DNA of 64,000 bases. Source: Rhodamnia argentea (lineage: Eukaryota > Streptophyta > Magnoliopsida > Myrtales > Myrtaceae). Made by a program: the position numbers and the translations under genes. Each line of letters starts with the position of its first letter. The stretch's first letter is position 1. Positions 5,245 to 55,300 of the stretch are shown one piece after another. The stretch is from positions 30,311,294 to 30,375,293 of the forward strand of contig NC_063155.1 in NCBI RefSeq assembly GCF_020921035.1. Direction: 5' to 3'. The notes below the pieces were generated by a model. It had not been told where the DNA came from, made no database searches, and saw only the letters and a program-made list of their open reading frames with translations.

Positions 5245-8200
5245 GAGAGAGTGAGTCAGGTGATGCTTGCTTGCTAGTTTTTGCTGCAGTAAACACCTGT
5301 GTGCATGTGCATATTTACTTGCTGAACATTTTTTCCTTTTCCCAGCAAGTCAAAGAGAGGCGATTGTTTTGGCTTCAGAGTCATCGCTCGGATCTTCTCC
5401 GAAGTTCGTAGCACATATGCAATAGCAGAAGTACTGCAGGTTACTTAGCACACGGCCCCCTGTTGAGTACATATGTCTTGGAGGTGGCCAGAGATGCAAA
5501 GTTGCAGACAATTATGACTTTATTTACTTAGGTTAGAAGGGTATCGGTTAGGGAGAGGAACTTTATCGTTCTACTTAACTAGTTTCTCTGCATAAACTAT
5601 GGATTTGAGATGTTCGATTATTCCGGTTCCATCGGTGACCTGGGTGTTTGGATTTCTTTTGGCTACTTGAACCCCTTTCCTCCCATGCTGTGGGAGTGCT
5701 GTCTCTATATGCTGTTTCTCTCTGCCTATACCATGTTTGTCCTAGAATTAGAAGAAGCTGCAAGTGCAGGCTCTTCTTGTTGTCTGCCTTTCGAGGAAAA
5801 CTGAGATACCCTATGATTTTTCTTCACTATGTGAAATGGCTTCTGATTTTTCTCTAGTTGTTTTACGCGATTTATGACTTTGAAGCTCGTCATTTTCCAG
5901 GGATATCGACTAAAGAAAGAAATCAATGCCTATACGATCATCTGATGAAGTATCTGAAAACGCCATACTTGGGTGCTGACTAGCATAACTCTGTACTGTA
6001 TATAGTTAAAGAAATCAGTTTTAGTGCAATTAAATTCACGTTCATCCTTGTATCGTTCATTGTGAGATGCTGTCACTGTTCTTTTTTGTTGATTTTTTTT
6101 CCCTCATCAATAAGAGCGAAAGGAAGGACTCTCGACATAAGTGAATGTGTGGCTACCTAGGGAAACTCCAGGCATCTACCTGAGCCCGATCACAATAAAC
6201 ATTCTTCGTTGCCTCATGGTGAAGCACCTACATTGCAATCTTTACTAGCTGGAATTTCAGGATTTCATCTCACGGCGAAATCAAAGGATGTGAAGACTTG
6301 CTGTTGTAAATGAGGAACATTTGAACTATCATAGTCCACGAGCTTCCCTAGATTTGTGTCAATTCAGTTCTAGAATATGTTCTTCTCGGACCAACAGCAA
6401 ATCCAATAAATGGCTATCTTGTTCATTCTTGGTCTAGGAGATTCTTCCGATCATGCCACTCCAACTTTTAGACCGAAAACTCGATTTTGCTTGCTCGCTG
6501 AATTACCAAGATAGGACTTGCAAATGTCCTCTTCTAACTTCTTCAAAGATCTCTTGTAGGATCATTTGGTCCACAAACACAATGACACAATCGAGGAATG
6601 CCGTCTTAGCAGTCAGTATAACGGTGTCTGAATAATTCACTAGTCGGTCTTCTCCCGGTGAACAACTCAAGCAAGAGGGATTCCTTAGCTGCACACATGT
6701 CCGAGACTCAACAACTCAGCTCCCATGCCAGACTCGCCGTTTGTATGGTCAATACCATATAGTATTACCAGAAGCAAAACCACGAGGAATAGCACCTGAA
6801 GCTGCAATATCCTTTGGTTCGTTCGACACCAAGTCAGCTAAATTGATTCTCGAGATCTTTACCCAACCTCGACACCAGCCTTGCTGAACCAAAATCGCTA
6901 AAATGAGTTGGTCATTTCATTACAAAAGGAGAACATTGCTTGGCTCCAGAATGTAACGGATTATTAGTCGCACATTAGAGAATTTGTTTACCCCCACGTC
7001 GAAAACAATGCAGATCAGTGCAGATTAATGTAGAGATATTTCCACTGCCTTAATCACAATCGTTTAACTAGCTTATCATAATCGTACATCGAGGTTTAAA
7101 CCCGTTATCATGTGAAAGATGATCACAATCACTCATCTGGCTCATCATATGTCGCCGGCTAGCTTGCCGTGGAGAGGTCTAAACAAAAGCGCGCGGCCAT
7201 ATGCATAATGCTCCTAGCTATGGTGAAGTGCGAACAGGAAGAAACTACAGCGCGAGCGCCCGTCATTCCATCTGGCCGCGACCATTTTTTTCCTCTGCCT
7301 GTCTCTAAGAATCCTGCTCATTGGGCTCCTAAAGTCTAGGCAGGTGAACCTAAAATTCAAGCCAAATGGAAATAATGGAAGTGAGGATTGGCATCGCGGC
7401 GGCGGCGACACCTGTCTCGACCGGAGAGGCTGAGGCATCCAATCTCTCCATTCAACCGGGCGAAGGGAGTCGCATTCCGTGCGATTAAATGCGTGCAGAG
7501 TGCTTGTTGCCGACATCTTGGACTTGCGATGCCAGTGTTTACGGGGGGGGCAATTCTCCAGGTTCTTTGAATCAAAACCAAGATGCTACGCCCATCGTTT
7601 TCTCTCGCACCTATACTTCGATGCCATTGCTGGTCCGGTGGTCCGGGTCGACTCCGTGGGGTACATTTGAAAACGACGAAGCAGCAAGAAAAAGATCACG
7701 TGGAAATTGAAGGTGACAGGAAAAAAAAAACGGACGAGGAGTCCAAACGTTTGTTCCATCTGCACATATATCTTAAGGTACGGCCCTGACATGCTTGAAA
7801 CTAGACCGACAAGATTGTTCCTCTCGAGAAATGTCAAATCTCTTCTTACCTATTGCCTAGTGCATTTAATGAGAAATATCCACTCTGAAAAATTCAGCCG
7901 GACCATGTGCGCTATCAGATCGATATATAGAAGATTGCCTTGAAAAACGTCAAAGGACAAGCCCATTGAAAAAAAAAAAAGTGTCGCATGACTTTTAGAC
8001 TAATTAATTTATCCGATATAGTTGGTAAATAATAGAATTATATCATATTTGAGCACCCTCTCTCTTCTAAAGTGGTCAAATGAACTTTAAAATGACGAAA
8101 TAATCTAGAACTATCCAAAATAACGTTGGAGAAAATCATTGACGATTGTTTCATGTGTATTTCAGATAATATCTGGTATCAGAAGTGAAATCCACCTTGG

Positions 8201-31882: not shown

Positions 31883-34800
31883 ATGGCATCCGATCCCTCT
31901 TTGATCGAGATCTCCGGAGAGGACGATTCGTTGCTACAGCAGATTCCTACGGACGACGTCGCCAGGAACTTCTTCTCTTGCTCGCCTCTTCAAATCCATG
32001 GATCCAAGCCCCGTGTCCCTCCTGTTGGTCAGGGCTTTTTCCTCCGCTTCCACCGATTCTTTCATTAATTTTCACTTGCATGTCAGGGGGATTTATTGGC
32101 TAGGCGTTCCTGACTCGGGGCTGTGGCGTCCGCTTTTGAGTTTGGTGTTGATTGGCCTTGTTTCGCTCTCTGATGCGACACATTTGTTCTTCAACTTCTT
32201 CTTTGGGTTGTTTGAGTTGCTGCATTCGTCGCCTTTCATTCCTCAGTCGGCTCTTGAGCAGCCGCCAATTTAATCTTCTTTTCCCGTGCATAGTGTTATT
32301 TAGACCGTATGCCATGTTCAATTGAAATCGGTTTCATGCGCAACAAGGATTCTGATTTCTAAGACTAGCTTTTTTCCGTCATTAACAGATAGTGTCAACA
32401 AAGAGAATGTAAATTTGAACAAGTACGATAGACTGAAACTCAGTCTAGAGCCACAGCATATGAAGAGGAAGAAGAAAGGTGGAGGCTACAATTTGCGGAA
32501 AAGCTTAGCATGGGACAGAGCCTTCTTTACTGAAGAAGGTGCGCTTGTTTATATTTACTAATGTAATGCCGAGCAGATATTTTAAAGATGATGTATTGGG
32601 ATGACTCCTTTTGAACTGTTCTTCAGGTTTCTTGGATCCCGTAGAATTATCTATGATAAGCGCAAACAGTGGCAGTTCCACAGGGGAGAAGTTGCCCGCA
32701 ATCCACGAAGAAGGGGGTGAATCATTGTCTGAGTTTCCAAACTCCCAAAGCGATTCAGGAGATGTGCTTGCACTCAAGGAGAAATTATTCAAAGAATTAC
32801 CAGTAAACACTACAAATGAGAGCAGAACAAAACCTAGTAGTTCACCACATCAGCGAGATGCATTAACTAAATGTGGCAGGGCCCTGGTTTCTTCGGTGAG
32901 TTTCTGCAATAAGCAAATTGATTTCCTTTTTCTCCTGGAAACAATTAACATTATCAATTGGGGCAATCCTAGAAACAGTGAAAATGAAAGTAATTTTAGG
33001 TGTTTCTTTCCCAGTTTATGTACTGCTAAATTATACGTGCCAGGTCAGTCCAAGATGGGTCATCTTCATTAATCCGTTCGAAACTTTTTTGACAGACCAA
33101 GCGGAAGGTGCTGTCAAACTATGATGTCAATGGCAGCAGGTCCAAGCGCAATGGCAGCTCACAATCCACTGCCCTATCTTCATATCCTTTTGATTAAGCT
33201 TTTAACATATCAAACAACTTATGAAATCTTGTTATTCTGCTTTTACCTCCATGATACAAATGGAAAGTTTAGTTTAGCTTAACTTCCCCGAACGCTGATA
33301 AAGCCTGTGAATGTGAACTCAACAAAGGTGGCCAGCAAAGAAGTTAATGCCTCTAAAAAGCCAGCTACCAAGCCAGGTTCCAGTTTGCGCACTCCGACAG
33401 CTAAGATTGCTCTGCGAGTTGGTCAACCTAAGCATAGTCAGCTTGCTCAATCAGGTAACATCTGTAAACGTTAGGGCACTGTGGAGATTTTCATATTATT
33501 GAACATTTGCACTTTGATAAACTGTTGCCTAAAAGCTTAATTTGCATATGACTAAAACTTAAGTGGGTTTATTCAGAGTTTACTGTTTGTTCAAAATTCT
33601 CTCTCTTCTTCAGGGACTGCTGACAAAAAGAATGCCGGACTGAAAATCTCTTCAAGCAATAAAATCCATTCTAAACCTAGTACTCCAGCTGGTCCTTCTA
33701 GCAAGCCTCCAACAACTAAATCCATTGTTCCCCAATCTAAAAGAAATTTGGTAAGAACCTCATGTTGCCTGTGGTGTATCTTTCATAGGTCAACCTAGTA
33801 AAGAACTGGTGGCAAATTTCATAAGTACTGCTTTTGTGAATGTTATGTCTTTCGTTTTTGTGGATAAGGTCCCTTATCAGCTAGACCAAGAGAACTTATT
33901 AATCTGATTAATTTTCTTTGAAATATGAGCAGGGAAAATCAGCTTCCAGGCTGACTTCATTAACTCGAGGGAATGATAGTTCACAGGAGATAGAAGGTCG
34001 AAAAAACCCTTCAGCACTAGATAATGACGCTAGATCTATCAAGGTAGAAGCCGCTCATCCTGAAAAAGCTCGTCTTACTGGAGGGTCCATTCAACATGTG
34101 CAACTGAAGGCAGCAAAACCATCTGGTTTGCGTATGCCTTCACCATCTCTGGGATTCTTTGGTCAGGTATAATGCCTTCAGATAGTTTTCAGAGGTTAAT
34201 TGCATCCTCCTAAAGGAAAGCATTTCAAAATGTCTGACATGATCATCTTCTCTTTTAATTCCTAATGATAATGTTCAGCAGCGAAAAGCTTCTACCAAGG
34301 GACTATTGAACAGTTATACTCAACCAAGCTATGACCCTCAGTCTGCTACAGGTAGTTCAAAGAGCCATAGAGCAGTAAACCCTCTGAGTGAGCTGAAGCC
34401 CCCACACGTGCATGAAAAAGTACAAAAGATGAGAATTGATGACACAAACCCAAACATGGGGTTGAGCACGGAAGTCTCTGCTAAATCTCTCAACCTGGAA
34501 TATCAAAAGCAAAATGCAGATCCAGAATCTCAAAATATATCGAAGATGAAAGTGAAAATACAACTTGACACTTTGGAAAACCATCAAAAGATTCATGGAT
34601 TTCTCGAGGATGGTAGTGAAGGACTTCATAGGCATATGGAAATGCACAAGATTGATATAAAACCTCAAGCGGAAGACAGAAATATGTCAGTTGGTTATGA
34701 TACACCATTTTCACATGTGGGACCTTGTGGGAAAGAGAAGGAGAGCAATTATAAGAAGAATCATATGATTGGTAGCCAATGTGTCGAAGGACCATCAAAA

Positions 34801-37800
34801 GTTTTAGCTGGGAATGCCATTGTTTTCTCCAATTCCCCTTCTGCTGATTCTAGTGTTGGCAGAATCCAGAGTAGTTTTGGACTGCCAGATCATCGGCTAC
34901 ACTGTGCTGAAGGTGTCTCTGAATTTTCAGAAAAAGTTAAACTAGTGGAATCTCATATCTATGATAATGATCGAACTTCCATCGTGAACCAAGAGAATCA
35001 AGCTAGGCTTATGGGGGTTAGATCATCTGAAGAATTACAGCAAAATTGTGAAGAGTGCACTGACAATTCGAATGATCAAGATGATAACGGGAACAAAGAA
35101 GAAAGATCTAGTGTGCTTCCCTTGAAACTTGCAGAGCAAGCAGACAATGGCTTTTGCGGGCTGCATGACAGCAGCACAAAATCATACATTGAAAATTCGG
35201 AGAACTTGGTTTTTTATGGCAGTCTCACAGCTAGTCATGGGGGTACTTCTCCGGCAGGCGACCATGCTGCAGAGCAAGTTACTTGCGAAAACAAAGGAGC
35301 AAAGGAAAATGATGAGTTATTGGTGGGTGCTAAATGCACGATGACTATCGATGAACAGCCGGAAGTTCATGCTGTAGAGCAAGTTGCTTATGCAAAGGAA
35401 CGAGCAACTGAAAATGATGACATATTGCTAATTGATTTTCGCATCAGAGGCGAACACCAGGATAATGCTCTGATGATTGAGTATTCTCCCCCCAATTGCC
35501 AGCATGCTTGTGAAGTGCTATTGAACAGCTCCACTGCTCTTAGCCCTGTACCTCCATCAGAGAATGTGGACAAAGCTAAAAGAGTCATTCTATATGCGGA
35601 GGAAAATCAATCACCACAGCAAGAGAGTGAGCCCATGGTTGAGAATTCTGCCTCCTTTAGTGACCGACAGTCAACTGACAACATGTACCTCCCTGGTCAA
35701 GTTGATGCTTTTAATCTTGGATCTTCTTTGATGGTGAACAGAGATCCGAAAACAGTTGCAGCAACTGATGATACTTCTGCTTCCTTTGTTGGTCTTGGAA
35801 TTGATCGTTGCAGCAGGGTCAAAGAGGAAGATAGATATGTCTCAACCCCACTGGCATCCGTGGTTGAAGATGGAGATGACAATATGCTAATGGAGTTGGA
35901 GTGTGATGATGAGGAAGTCCTATTGAACAGTTCCACTGCTCTTTGCCCTGAACCTCCATCAGAGAATGTTCACCAATCTGACAAAGCTAAAAGAGTAGTT
36001 CTATATGCGGAGGAAAACAAATCGGCGCAGCAAGAGAGCGAGCCATTGGTTGAAAATTCTGCCTCCTTTAGTGACCGACAGTCAACTGACAACATGTACC
36101 TCCCTGGTCAAGTTGATGCTTTAAATACGGGATCTTCTTTGATGGTGAACAGAGATCCAAAAACAGTTGCAGCAACTGATGATACTTCTGCTTCCTTTGT
36201 TGGTCTTGGAATTGATCGTTGCAGCGGGGTCAAAGAGGAAGATAGATATGTCTCAACCCCACTGGTATCCGTGGTTGAAGATGGAGATGACAATATGCTA
36301 ATGGAGTTGGAGTGTGATGATGAGGAAGTCCTATTGAACAGCTCCACTGCTCTTTGCCCTGAACCTCCATCAGAGAATGTTCACCAATCTGACAAAGCTA
36401 AAAGAGTAGTTCTATATGCGGAGGAAAACAAATCGGCGCAGCAAGAGAGCGAGCCATTGGTTGAAAATTCTGCCTCCTTTAGTGACCGACAGTCAACTGA
36501 CAACATGTACCTCCCTGGTCAAGTTGATGCTTTAAATACGGGATCTTCTTTGGTGGTGAACAGAGATCCAAAAACAGTTGCAGCAACTGATGATACTCCT
36601 GCTTCCTTTGTTGGTCTAGGAAGTGATCGTTGCAGCGGGGTCAAAGAGGAAGATAGATATGTCTCAACCCCATTGGTATCCGTGGTTGAAGATGGAGATG
36701 ACAATATGCTAATGGAGTTGGAGTGTGATGATGTGGAAGTCCTATTGAACAACTCCACTGCTCTTAGCCCTGAACCTCCATCAGAGAATGTTCACCAATC
36801 TGACAAAGCTAAAAAAGTGGTTCTATATGCGGAGGAAAATCAATCAGCACAGCAAGAGAGTGAACCAATGGTTGAAAATTCTGCCTCCTTTAGTGACCGA
36901 CGTTCAACTGACAACATGTACCTCCCTGGTCAAGTTGATGCTTTTAATCCGGGATCTTCTTTGATGGTGAACAGAGATCCAAAAACGGTTGCTGCAACTG
37001 ATGATACTTCTGCTTCTTTTGTTGGTCTAGGAAGTGATCGTTACAGCGGGGTCAAAGAGGAATATAGATATGTCTCAACCGCACTAGTATCAGTGGTTCA
37101 AGATGGAGATGACAATATGCTAATGGAGTTGAAGGAGTGCGGTGATGTGGAAGAAAGACAAATACTTCAGTCAGAGAAGAATGCTTCTGTCAGTTTAGTG
37201 ACAGGTAGGCTACTTCCTGATTCACTGACAGGAACAGAGCTATTGTCAAGGGAAGTGGACAACTCATCTCATGAGGATAGACATAGTGGGTCCTTTGGAC
37301 AGCACCAGAAATTAAAGGACTGTTACCTGCCTAATGTCTCAGTACATGTTGAAGATCCATCTTGGCAAGATGACGTAGATCAAACAAATGAAGAATTGCG
37401 CAGTTTTGATAATGCTATGAAGAATTCTTCTGCTGTGGTTGGACAACAGCAGCTGTTGGATGGCAGTTCATTTATCGACTGCTCGCTAAAGATGAACGGG
37501 TTGGCTGGGGACGACAACTTCTCCATGGCTTCTCATCGAAATGAGCAATCTTGTTATCAGCCTGAGCTTCACGATCCCTGCTTCACAGCGGAATTTGATT
37601 CACACACTCATCGAGGATTGTCTTCAAATGATGAGATATCCACTGTGGACAACTATCTTAAAGAACCAAAGAGCTATTTTGCCAGTAGTTGTAGTCTGTG
37701 TCAAGATGATGTCTGTGGCAGCAAACATCCAAAGGCTGATATTTGTTCCCAAGTAGAACCTGTTCTGCAAGATAATTCTGGCAATATAGGAACAATTTAC

Positions 37801-39748
37801 GAAGACCCTAATGCAGAGGATGTGTTGTCAGTTTCTGTGCAAAAATATCAGTCAAATATTTACAATGCATCGCTGGAAGATAATGCTGCTGTGGATATGA
37901 ACATAGAGGAATTTCCTGAGGCTGGAGTTAATGTCATGGTTTCATCTTGCCGGTCAAGTGACAAAGTGGTTTTGGATGTCAAAAATGATGAAGCAGAACT
38001 GCCTATAAACAACCAATGCACTGAAGAAGCTAGTCAGTTGAAAAGTAGCATTTTGCCTGAAAAGGTTGACTCTAGTGTTCCCGGGGAAAGTTTTAGTTAT
38101 GACGTCCAGAGGCTGCATGAATTTGGTAGTACCTTGAATTCCTGCAAGGATACGACCACATTAGTCCAAGGGTTAGAATCACAAATTTTGTTTGATATAT
38201 GTGCTCTTTTTGCACTTTTTAACTTTCCTATGTTGGATTCCAGTTTTAGAAGCCTCCTCATTCACATTCAGAATCTTTATTCAGGAAGTAATTTGCTGCA
38301 GGGAAATTTGCAAGAATGATGGGAAACAAGAATCTGCCATGGTGAAACCTCCACCAGATGCTCCTCCATTCTCTGAGGAATGGTTAGCGGCATTTGAAGC
38401 TGCCGGGGAGGTAATTGAAAATAGACGACTCGATGTAATGAATCCGTATCTGTAATCTGAACATCTAAACCCCTTAAAGTCTTGTGTTATGATGACTCCA
38501 ATCATATACTTGCCTGAAGACCAGTTGTGGATGTTATAGAGGCAATTATTTTAGATCAGAAAGAATCTCACCCAGCGTCTTCCATTCACTCAACGTTAAT
38601 GCTCATCGATGATTTTGTGGTTCAATAGTCATGGCTTGATGGTTTGTTACAGTATCTGTTATTGGTAAACTGATACTTTGAGCTTTAAAGTTTGATATTT
38701 GGTTCATCACGACTTCAGGAAATTCTTACAATGAAATGCGGTGCCGTCCAAAATTCCCCTCCTGACAAGACTCTGCCTGAACCCAGTCCATGGTCGCCGG
38801 TATGACCTTTCCTACTCAAGCAAAAGTTCGTTCTTTTTCTATTTTGCTATGGCTTGTGTGAAGGTTGCACCTAATTTGAGAGGACTATAGAATTAGTTGG
38901 TGATTACTTTGACATTTAAAATATTAACCCTCAGATGACCGTGAAAAATAAAGAAGGATAAGATAGTTATCCTATATCCATGCCTAATCGGTTTTTAGTT
39001 GTCCTTTATATAGATGTGACTAAGTCTGATTTTGATGGGAAATTATCCTTGTGTTGTCTAATCATAGAAGTGAATGAAGTCCATTGGGAATTTCATAGCT
39101 GATTAACATCAAGTTGTGTTAATGCGAGAGAGAGTATTAGTTAGTGACTGAAAATATTATGACACTTAAATTTAGTAACCATGAAAGAATAAAGAAGGGA
39201 AAGACAGTTATCAAATATCCAAGGCTAATCGGTTTTCAATTGTCATTTATATAGATAGGGACAGTACTAGAATGGCAAATGAATGTCGTTGTCTAAGCAT
39301 AGAAGTGATTGAAGTACCTTTGGAATTTCATAGTTGATAAACATCAAGCAGTCAATTAAGCAAGTAATTAATATTCAGTGTCTCGACCGTTTTTGTTTAC
39401 CCTCAAGTACCTCCATTAACTGTAAGTTTAAGGGTGCCGGGGCAACTTGGGAAAAACATTTGAGGCGCTTATTCAGACTTCCACTTAGTTTACTTCGTGT
39501 TCGGTGAAATCTCAGTGGCTTACTTCCTCTAGCAATGACGTTTCTCTGTGTGGTTTTTCATGCCTTTAGGATTGTATTATAAAAAGTACTTTCTTTTTAC
39601 CGTTATTAAAGTTCATGAAATTTGTTCACATTACAAGTTTTTCTTGTTTGTGCAGGTGAAGCGAAAAAATAATCAGGCAATTGGACCATATGACTGTACA
39701 AAGTTCACTAATGTCTGCAACAACATTCCTGAATGCAGCTCCGAATAG
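31883..39748 (+). CDS. large plant protein of unknown function with internal 137-aa repeats
   Basis: Model: exons 31883-32027, 32389-32538, 32627-32895, 33096-33181, 33294-33454, 33614-33750, 33933-34166, 34279-38171, 38302-38410, 38719-38799 and 39656-39748, about 1785 aa. I do not recognise a characterised family. The N-terminal part has a basic conserved-looking block, GGGYNLRKSLAWDRAFFTEE. A Lys/Ser/Pro-rich basic region follows, then a very acidic, Ser/Asn/Glu-rich, probably disordered centre in exon 8. The C-terminus is ordered-looking: PFSEEWLAAFEAAGEEILTM, then SPWSPVKRKNNQAIGPYDCT. Both blocks feel familiar from unannotated plant proteins, but I assign no function. The intron between 33181 and 33294 is AT-AC. 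Exon 8 can also start at 34282 (CAGCAG tandem acceptor). The exon 8/exon 9 junction is the weakest: 38171 to 38302 keeps frame, but a donor after 38125 with an acceptor before 38244 also does. Confidence 0.85.
33182..33293 (+). other. U12-type (AT-AC) intron
   Basis: No GT-AG pair joins the flanking exons in frame here. An AT-AC intron does. The intron starts ATATCCTTTT, a perfect match to the U12 5' splice-site consensus. It has a CTTAAC branch-like element at 33278-33283, and ends CCCCGAAC, about 11 nt after the presumed branch adenosine, the usual short U12 spacing. Splicing joins TCT TC to G CTG ATA AAG, keeping the long open frame (ALSS|LIKPVNVNSTK). Length is 112 nt. AT-AC introns of the minor spliceosome are rare in plant genes. 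Confidence 0.85.
35512..37149 (+). repeat. four in-frame tandem repeats inside the coding exon (about 411 bp each)
   Basis: Units begin at the EVLLN codons: 35512 (402 bp), 35914 (411 bp), 36325 (411 bp) and 36736 (414 bp). Every length is a multiple of three. Each unit encodes EVLLNSSTAL, PPSENV, KRVVLYAEEN, ENSASFSDRQSTDNMYLPGQ, MVNRDPKTVAATDDT, SFVGLG and VSVVEDGDDNMLMEL. Units 2 and 3 differ at only about eight bases by eye (roughly 98% identical); units 1 and 4 are more diverged. The first unit lacks three codons (HQS). This is a recent unequal-crossover expansion of a disordered acidic segment. Confidence 0.97.
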
Positions 39749-49205: not shown

Positions 49206-50700
49206 TTGCTGTGTCGAACTCACAACTTCACTAATTCAGATTAAAAAAAAACCGAACTTTGAAAGGTGAAACACAAGACACGAATGGATAACTTATGTGA
49301 TCCGCATTTGCCACACCTCTTGGATTGTACTAATTCCTATTGGCATCTTCATCATCAGCATAACATGACACGGCAGAATTTTGCCGATCAACATGGAGAG
49401 CACCTTTTCTTGTTGTGATCACATAATGTCCTTTCATGGCAAATATATATTTATATAAACATATACGTATATTTGATAAGTCCTGTCCTATTGGTCCGAG
49501 TAGGTGCTTTTCACCTTAAACCGGAAATCGGACCGATACTCGCCGATTCAAACAAATTAGAATAGGGAACTACCCGAAATAGATCGATTCGATCTAGTTC
49601 GGGTGGATTTCGATTCTTTTGCACACCCTTAGAAAAGAGAGCCAAGAACAGGTACACATGTGGCGCATGGCTATTGTCACCTAGTGTTATAAGGTGTTGG
49701 GTTAAGTCATGCAACGAGTTCAGCCTTTGTGTCTAATTGTCATGGTTGAGTTTGGAACCTTGACCGGTTTGCCGGTGATAAGCCCAAAGAAGATGAAGAT
49801 GATGTAAAGTCGTCGTGCCCCTTGCGCCATTAATGTTTGAGAATGATTATGGATTATTATATCATAGTGATTAGACATTAATATGAAAGTACTTTCATTT
49901 TACCCATTTCATTTTCTAATTTAACGAGTGATAGAAGTTTGATGATGACAAGTCACTAAACAAATGCTAATCAATATGATATGATCCGATAGCGCCAAGT
50001 GACTTGTCATGTGGTAATCACAGTGGTAGTGTTAGGTGACGTCAAATGAGCGAATATACTTTCATTTTTTATTTTAACTCTCTCTATATATAAGAAAAAA
50101 TTAAAATAAATCCTGCTTGAGGAAAAAAATCCACACAGGACGAAGAGGAACAACATTCGACAGCTCGAGAATCGGTTTATGTAGCACCGACACTCTCCAA
50201 CACTCTTGGACACATTTTGACATGCAACCAACACGTGGCCAGCACTCTAAATACGCCGGCGACACTTGAGTCCCGCATCTCGACACACAATTTCGGCACA
50301 CACGAGTCAATTTTGAACATTTTCAATAAATTATAGGTCAAAATATAAATTTATAAAAAATATACATACTTAAGCCATATATCTAGTCATTCCAAAATTA
50401 ATATACCCAGCCAATCCAATAAAAACTAACATGAATTTCTAATAAAAGAAAAATAAATTCACCATTAATATTTTTATACATACAATAAATATATATTTAA
50501 TATACAACGCATTTCAATGAGTCCGAATTTTTTATTTTTTTAGGAATCGATCTATCGTGTAGTGTCATGTCGGGTCATGTCGGTGTTACATAGGCATCAG
50601 ACGGAGCGGAGCGGGCCGGTGGAATGGTGGCCAACCAATCGAGCCGTTTTTTTTTTTTTTTGGGTTAGAATCAAGCCGTAGTTAAATTAATCGGAAAATT
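49206..50700. other. intergenic, AT-rich
   Basis: No gene is recognised. About 49495-49640 resembles the GGTTCGG/GATTTCG repeat blocks near 15-16 kb. Confidence 0.35.
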
Positions 50701-52350: not shown

Positions 52351-55300
52351 ATGTGCGATGAGGGAGAAAAGACCTGTCCTCTTTGCGCTGAGGAGATGGA
52401 TTTGACGGATCAGCAATTGAAACCTTGCAAATGTGGATACGAGGTCTGAAAGTTAAATATTAACTTCTCTTAGCTCCTCACTTTCATTATGTGTTTGTTG
52501 TGCTGTTGGGAAGTCTCAGTTTCTCATTTCATTCCTTGCCCTTTTTTTTCTTTCCTGTTGTGTGTTGTGTGCAAAGTAGTTGATTTAGATATACAAAGCT
52601 CATGGTATCCTTTGAAATTACCATTCTAAAGCCCATGTTTAGCGAGAGTCTTTAAACTAGTTACAAATCGAGGATCTTGGTCCTCGAAATATTAAGCCAG
52701 CGCTTGATATTTGCCTCATTCTTGCCAACTATTGCCTATTATGTATGCCTCTGTCTCTCATTAATTTCTGTGTCTATTTTAGATATGTGTTTGGTGTTGG
52801 CATCACATAATGGACATGGCAGAGAAGGATGAAACAGAGGGGCGTTGTCCGGCATGTCGAGCCCCTTATGACAAGGAGAAGATTGTAGGGATGGCTACAA
52901 ACTGCGAGAGGTGATTTTCTGATGTGTGCGATGCTGATTTGGCTTCCACATCATTATCTTTAGGTGATAGTTTCTTTTCTGTCAGATTGGTGGCCGAAAT
53001 TAATACAGAGAGAAAAACAAGGTCTCAAAAGGCAAAGATAAAATCTTCAGAGGGGAGAAAGCAATTGGGTAGCGTTCGGGTGATACAGCGGAACCTCGTG
53101 TACATAGTCGGCTTGCCTCTTAACTTAGCAGATGAAGATGTGTGTATCTCTCTGTTTTCCTTCCCTCTCTTGTGCAACATGGAAACTATTTCCTACTCAT
53201 GCATACCCCCTAAGTAAAATCAGGCATTTGTTCACTCACATATACCAACTTATGGGTGGAGTCATTGATTTTTACTGATTCAGACTAGTAATATATATCA
53301 TATATATGCAGATTCTTCAACGAAGAGAGTACTTCGGTCAATATGGGAAGGTTCTTAAAGTGTCTATGTCTCGGACGGCTACTGGTGCCATTCAGCAGTT
53401 TCCAAACAATACCTGTAGTGTGTGAGTTGACAAGTTTCCAAGAGTCTGGTCTGAAGAAATGTCATCATTCTTAATCTGTTTTTAACTGGACAGAGCGTTG
53501 TTCTTGGAACCGTTTGGTTTCCTGATTGTTCTTTTTTAATTTGCATGAGTTTTAAGTGGAGAGCCCTTTTTTCTTCTCTAGATAGCTGTTTGGTCAAGCA
53601 CCTTCAGTTTTTTGGTTATGTGGTTGTTTGGCCTCTTCTGTCTTCCAATCTTTATGCCTATTGCCTGGATTATATTCCAGGTCTTTGATTTCTTTTGCAC
53701 TTTATATTTCTCGCAAAAACGTATGGTCTTATGTAGATAATTGCTTACAGATGCACTGTGTGCTTTCCCTTAGATATATTACTTTCTCAAAAGAGGAGGA
53801 AGCAGTCTGCTGTATACAGTCTGTTCATGGGTATGTGTTGGATGGTAGACCATTAAGGTATTTCTCATTTTTGGATATCCGTTATTTTTCTCCAAGTGTT
53901 TGCTGCATAAGGCAGATCAATTTGATGATTTTGGATGCCCCATTTCAGGGCATGCTTTGGAACCACTAAGTACTGTCATGCATGGCTTAGAAATGCGGTA
54001 TGAACAACAAATAAGATATCGTTGGTCTGTTCCATTTTATGCTATGGGATAGATAGATTTATTTAGGTTCTTTAAACTTAATTAAGCTAATGAGTTTTTC
54101 CTTTCCAGCCCTGCACCAACCCAGATTGTCTGTATCTGCATGAGACTGGGTCTCAGGAGGATAGCTTCACCAAGGATGAAATAATTTCAGCATACACAAG
54201 GTTGGGTTATTTTTTAGAGCTGGCATTGTCTCATCCTTTTTATTTGTTCCTCTTTTGAGGGGAATAACACAAAGATGCTGTCCATTTCCATGAAATCAAG
54301 TTTCTTTTGTGGAGCTGGCCTCTTCTTATGTCAGAAGAAGATGTTATCTTGTTTTGCACTACCTCCTTTCTTTTTAGTGACTAGGATCAGTTCTATGATC
54401 ATGTAAAACAGGCAATAGGAATTGTCATACATGCATGAACTCATGTTTTTACTGGCCTACAAATTATGGAGTTTATCATCATTTGCTGAACTAGGTCAAA
54501 ACACCCCAAGTTGTTGATTTGCCGTCCTGCATCTTTTAGATAGATTGTGGTACTATCTCTATCTTGTCTATATACTTGTAAACATTTGTCTTGGGTATGT
54601 AGGGAAGCATAGTTGTGGTTTACTTGTGGCAATGCACTGGATGTATACGAGCATATTTATGAGCTAAAGTACACTATAAGTGCCAAAACTTGTGTATGGC
54701 GCTTACTTTAGGGCTAAAACTTTCAAAACGATCACTTAAGTGCCAAATTTTTTGAAAAATGAGCATTTCGGTGCCAAAACTTTCAAAACGATTCTTGAAG
54801 TGCCAAATTTTTTGGAAAACGCTCACTTCGGTGTCAATTCCGTCGAGCCACGTCGGTTCAAATATTAATAAAAACTAGGGCACATCGGATTTCTGGCGAG
54901 CCACGTCGGTTCAAATCAGAGTTGGCACTGAAGTGAGCGTTTTCCAAAAAATTTGGCACTTAAGTGATCGTTTGAAAATTTTGGCACCAAAGTGGGTTCC
55001 GTACACAAGTTTTGGCACTTCTAGTGTGCTTTAACCTATATTTATGTGTATCTATAGGATTTAACATTTTGTGAGAGATACAGTTCAGAAATTGGTGCAT
55101 TTTGGTCCCTTGCTGCTAGCTTTTAGCTGCTTGAATAGAATGTGATCACATATTATTGTCCTAAACTATCTTGCTGCTTTAAAGGACTAGAGTCCAGCAA
55201 ATGACAGGCAACGGCCGCTGTATGCAAAGGCGCATTGGAAGTGTATTGCCACCTCCATTTGATGATAATTGTAACATCAGCTTGCCTTCTGCCACAAAAC

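Follow-up and report, generated by a model that had tools for sequence, protein, structure and literature searches.

The window analysed here, a 64,000-nucleotide stretch of Rhodamnia argentea DNA (C6:30311294-30375293 of a 346.66-Mb, 74-contig genome), carries on its plus strand a gene whose model spans 31883-38799 and ends before the stop-bearing last exon. The ten coding exons of the model (31883-32027, 32389-32538, 32627-32895, 33096-33181, 33294-33454, 33614-33750, 33933-34166, 34279-38171, 38302-38410, and 38719-38799) make up 1755 open codons, and eight of its nine introns have GT-AG ends. The exception is intron 4 (33182-33293), a 112-nt AT-AC intron in phase 2 that is assigned to the U12 type from its sequence, its reading frame and the position of stop codons, and that separates coding exon 4 (33096-33181, 86 nt) from coding exon 5 (33294-33454, 161 nt). 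The first 394 amino acids of the host protein have no Pfam match at E values up to 10, and exon 8 has two matches, both below the curated cut-offs (the best, to TNF, scores 21.7 bits against a cut-off of 23). Nor was the gene found in the passages of the literature that were consulted. Exon 8 also contains a 411-bp unit repeated four times in tandem (35512-37131, 94% matches); because the unit corresponds to 137 codons the reading frame of the exon is kept, and the array is probably a recent internal expansion of the host protein.

Splice signals of intron 4

Intron 4 opens with ATATCCTTTTGATT and closes with TTAGTTTAGCTTAACTTCCCCGAAC, also given as TTTAGCTTAACTTCCCCGAAC, and is flanked by ...CTATCTTC on the 5' side and GCTGATAAAG... 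on the 3' side. The 5' splice site (33182-33191, ATATCCTTTT) agrees with the U12-type donor (A/G)TATCCTT. The branch site (33275-33283, TAGCTTAAC) matches the published consensus TTCCTTRAY (PMC5932401) at seven of nine positions, with the core CTTAAC exact and the branch adenosine at 33282, and the intron ends in CCCCGAAC (33286-33293), the 3' splice site AAC occupying 33291-33293 and its final base lying 11 nt past the branch adenosine. The coordinates of the original prediction are exact, and its letters hold from the donor to the AC end. The GC content falls from 0.52 in exon 4 to 0.30 in the intron and rises again to 0.48 in exon 5.

Terminal dinucleotides of this kind do not by themselves identify the spliceosome, as AT-AC introns of the U2 type exist, one example described in PMC2831892 being intron 21 of SCN4A, and it could be argued that the major (U2) spliceosome removes intron 4 as well. 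The sodium-channel introns, however, carry G at +5 according to the same source, which uses this base to recognise a U2-like donor, whereas the +5 base of intron 4 is C, its donor is a complete U12 one, and its branch site is U12-like. Removal by the U2 machinery is accordingly very improbable, and the U12-type identity of intron 4 draws support from its donor, including the C at +5, from the branch core and its 11-nt spacing, and from the AC end, the phase and the low GC content.

In its donor and branch-site consensus, low GC content and non-0 phase, intron 4 resembles plant U12-type introns generally, and it differs in being AT-AC, which PMC5932401 describes as the minority subtype of Arabidopsis U12 introns. 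Minor introns are reported to avoid phase 0 in most species (PMC7367187; PMC10639083), although the bias is not significant in four species of PMC7367187, soybean, rice, and maize among them; the same paper describes the U12-intron databases IAOD, U12DB, and ERISdb. The original prediction had called AT-AC introns rare and had warned that annotation pipelines restricted to GT-AG would mishandle this boundary. Both remarks agree with what PMC5716242 reports for Arabidopsis Nd-1, where AT-AC pairs number 66 (0.05%) in the improved gene set and the earlier ab initio set had zero non-canonical introns.

The motifs taken by themselves prove little. Counting both strands, the window contains RTATCCTT at six sites, and at three of these (33182, 6807, and 38153, the last on the minus strand) it is followed by a CTTRAY and a suitable AC or AG terminus; in 60 simulated strands of 64 kb each, this combination averaged 0.3 occurrences per strand. 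A motif-only scan was dropped as proof for this reason, and the motifs count only in combination with the coding frame. By our own arithmetic, and before any requirement of frame, the chance of meeting the combination within the interval of about 100 bases available for the end of exon 4 lies between about 5e-4, by the simulated rate, and about 2e-3, by the rate of the other two real sites (128 kb of sequence). One of those sites is a look-alike of a U12 intron at 6807-7068 (ATATCCTTTGG...TGCCTTAAT...AAC) whose branch site, at eight of nine positions, is nearer the consensus than that of intron 4. No stop-to-stop ORF of at least 150 amino acids is listed for its region, where short exons are possible, and it is useful as a false positive. 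Elsewhere in the window a zf-RING_4 exon is preceded, at 52605, by GTATCCTTT, which by our own reading sits within an intron of the zf-RING_4 gene.

Reading frame and alternative junctions

Joining 33181 to 33294 gives TKRKVLSNYDVNGSRSKRNGSSQSTALSSLIKPVNVNSTKVASKE... in phase 2, and with intron 4 taken out the model reads through 1755 codons with no stops; when the intron is retained, an in-frame TAA appears at codon 222. The original prediction held that the AT-AC junction restores the frame exactly where no GT-AG choice works, and the first part of that statement is correct. The second part is not, as enumeration of frame-keeping junctions with GT, GC, or AT donors within 33096-33299 returned 133 (18 GT-AG, 45 GC-AG, and 70 with an AT donor), and six further acceptors are compatible with skipping of exon 4. 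All 18 GT-AG junctions lose coding sequence. Because frame-keeping GT-AG and GC-AG junctions exist, the frame alone fails to single out 33181/33294.

These junctions leave room for an arrangement in which the major spliceosome skips or shortens exon 4, either by joining the donor of exon 3 (32896) to an AG in exon 5, for instance at 33303, or by using the GT at 33108 (AAG|GTGCTG). The frame would be kept by the six skip acceptors and by the 18 GT-AG pairs, and the exon 3 donor, TCG|GTGAGT, scores 1.4. The acceptors, however, sit in coding-like sequence and lack an evident pyrimidine tract (for example CGAACGCTGATAAAG), and an open stretch of 29 codons would be lost in whole or in part. GT and GC donors inside exon 4 score at most 0.4, compared to 1.4 to 4.1 for five of the six GT introns of the gene that were scored with the same approximate plant matrix; the GT donor of intron 1 scores only -1.1, so that donor scoring is not decisive against the donors in exon 4. 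Skipping or shortening would moreover require the U12-like donor, the branch site, and the AC end to have come together by chance, with the odds of about 5e-4 to 2e-3 estimated above. We regard this arrangement as improbable in comparison with removal of 33182-33293 as an intron.

Minor-spliceosome genes and a control intron

Searches with covariance models for three of the four minor snRNAs found genes for all three in the genome: U12 at C8:20329619-20329783 (87.3 bits), U11 at C6:24534080-24534206 (76.3 bits), and U6atac at three loci (94.9, 86.6, and 57.2 bits), every one of them above its Rfam cut-off. The same U12, U6atac, and U11 searches gave no match in any of 14 control genomes. AAAGGAGAG is present in two of the U6atac loci (L012 and L014), whose pairing with the donor region of intron 4 is worth -7.9 and -8.1 kcal/mol.

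The U12 gene includes GAGTAAGGAAAA, and the final 24 bases of intron 4 pair with this region at -7.0 kcal/mol, compared to -14.3 for a consensus site; the branch 12-mer pairs with U12 at -5.7, a value equalled or bettered by 7% of the 2385 12-mers of the gene, and a segment further upstream in the intron (33227-33242, 51-55 nt from its end) pairs slightly better than the branch 12-mer (down to -6.5). The signals of this intron had been called textbook, a term that suits the donor and does not suit the branch site, given its seven of nine matches to TTCCTTRAY and its U12 pairing of about half the consensus value.

How much weight this should be given can be judged from a positive control, which consists of one intron. 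In the CBP20 genes of ten plant species, an AT-AC U12 intron is reported to follow exon 4 at a conserved position, with exon 4 measuring 34 nt in Arabidopsis and rice (PMC5932401). The CBP20 gene of the present genome likewise has a 34-nt exon 4 followed, at the expected place, by a 372-nt AT-AC intron that starts ATATCCTTTTGAAA and ends TTCCCTAACATGTTCAC, and removal of this intron yields a 31-letter protein stretch at the junction. Like intron 4, the CBP20 intron has AT-AC ends, the same first 12 bases (ATATCCTTTTGA), and an imperfect TTCCTTRAY branch site near the AC end (8/9, at 9 nt rather than 11 nt); the two differ in host gene, in phase (1 versus 2), and in length (372 versus 112 nt). 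The 3' end of the CBP20 intron pairs with U12 at -5.4 kcal/mol, compared to -7.0 for intron 4, and because the control pairs more weakly by this simple measure, a seven-of-nine branch site is no strong objection. The presence in one genome of the U12, U6atac, and U11 genes and of a matching AT-AC intron in CBP20 further supports the U12-type identity of intron 4.

Predicted splicing and relatives of the gene

The splice signals, the frame logic, the three snRNA genes, and the matching control intron lead us to interpret 33182-33293 as a genuine U12-dependent AT-AC intron, the fourth intron of a plant gene with no assigned function, with a probability of roughly 0.9. Its splicing, and any regulation that depends on it, are predictions from genomic sequence. 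In the general course of minor splicing, the U11 snRNP would bind the donor ATATCCTTT and U12 snRNA would pair around GCTTAAC, leaving the branch adenosine at 33282 bulged. U6atac would then displace U11, its AAAGGA pairing with TCCTTT, and two transesterifications would complete the phase 2 junction of 33181 with 33294. Should removal be slow, as is reported for plant U12 introns (PMC5932401), transcripts that keep the intron would run into the TAA of codon 222, the probable outcome being degradation or a shortened protein. A gene model broken by GT-AG-only prediction would be put right by this intron, which would also add one more AT-AC example to a well-known kind, accompanied by a control from its own genome. 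The understanding of minor splicing is unchanged by such a feature, which is in all likelihood real but ordinary, and of a sort often mishandled by gene-finding software.

A 510-amino-acid query against the same genome, at E values up to 1, returned nine matches, eight to exons of the gene itself and one, on C10, that is distant (E 0.197), so that no other close copy of the gene was found at this threshold. The distant paralogue (L010; C10:23874000-23883990, minus strand) has in common with the host gene the motifs YNLR.SLAWD.AFFT..GFL.P and KPSGLRMPSP..GFF. For a gene with no other close copy found, and whose first 394 amino acids match no Pfam family, one might suspect a mis-assembled or decaying copy in which the frame is broken by a mutation and not by an intron. 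Such a history is barely credible for ten exons with workable splice sites that stay open for 1755 codons, and for a protein that has motifs in common with a distant paralogue.

The paralogue does not confirm the position of the AT-AC intron. At a comparable place, by our own reading, it has a GT-AG intron in phase 0 (CAG|GTAATG...TTGCAG|TCG), and because the phases differ (0 versus 2) homology of the two intron positions is not claimed. A one-to-one match of exons between the two genes was weakened by differences in intron phase, read by eye, at several introns. It is conceivable, though unlikely, that plant orthologues share the AT-AC intron and that it serves as a point of control, its slow excision by the minor spliceosome capping the output of full-length protein from a gene with no assigned function; the paralogue, with its GT-AG intron, would then have escaped that control. 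A 111-amino-acid query from exons 2 and 3 gave no confirmed relative among 254 pattern matches in genome_contigs and 21 in viral_contigs. These are prokaryotic or viral collections, so that the outcome is the one expected for a plant gene and carries no inference on plant orthologues.

Two further features were noted. A Dof zinc finger was detected, a family that is not known outside green plants, and together with the plant-type CBP20 gene it marks the genome as that of a plant. At 49660-49820 of the window, 161 bases match the bacterial-type small-subunit rRNA (model positions 1038-1200, 66.6 bits), and this fragment is perhaps organelle DNA that has moved into the nucleus.
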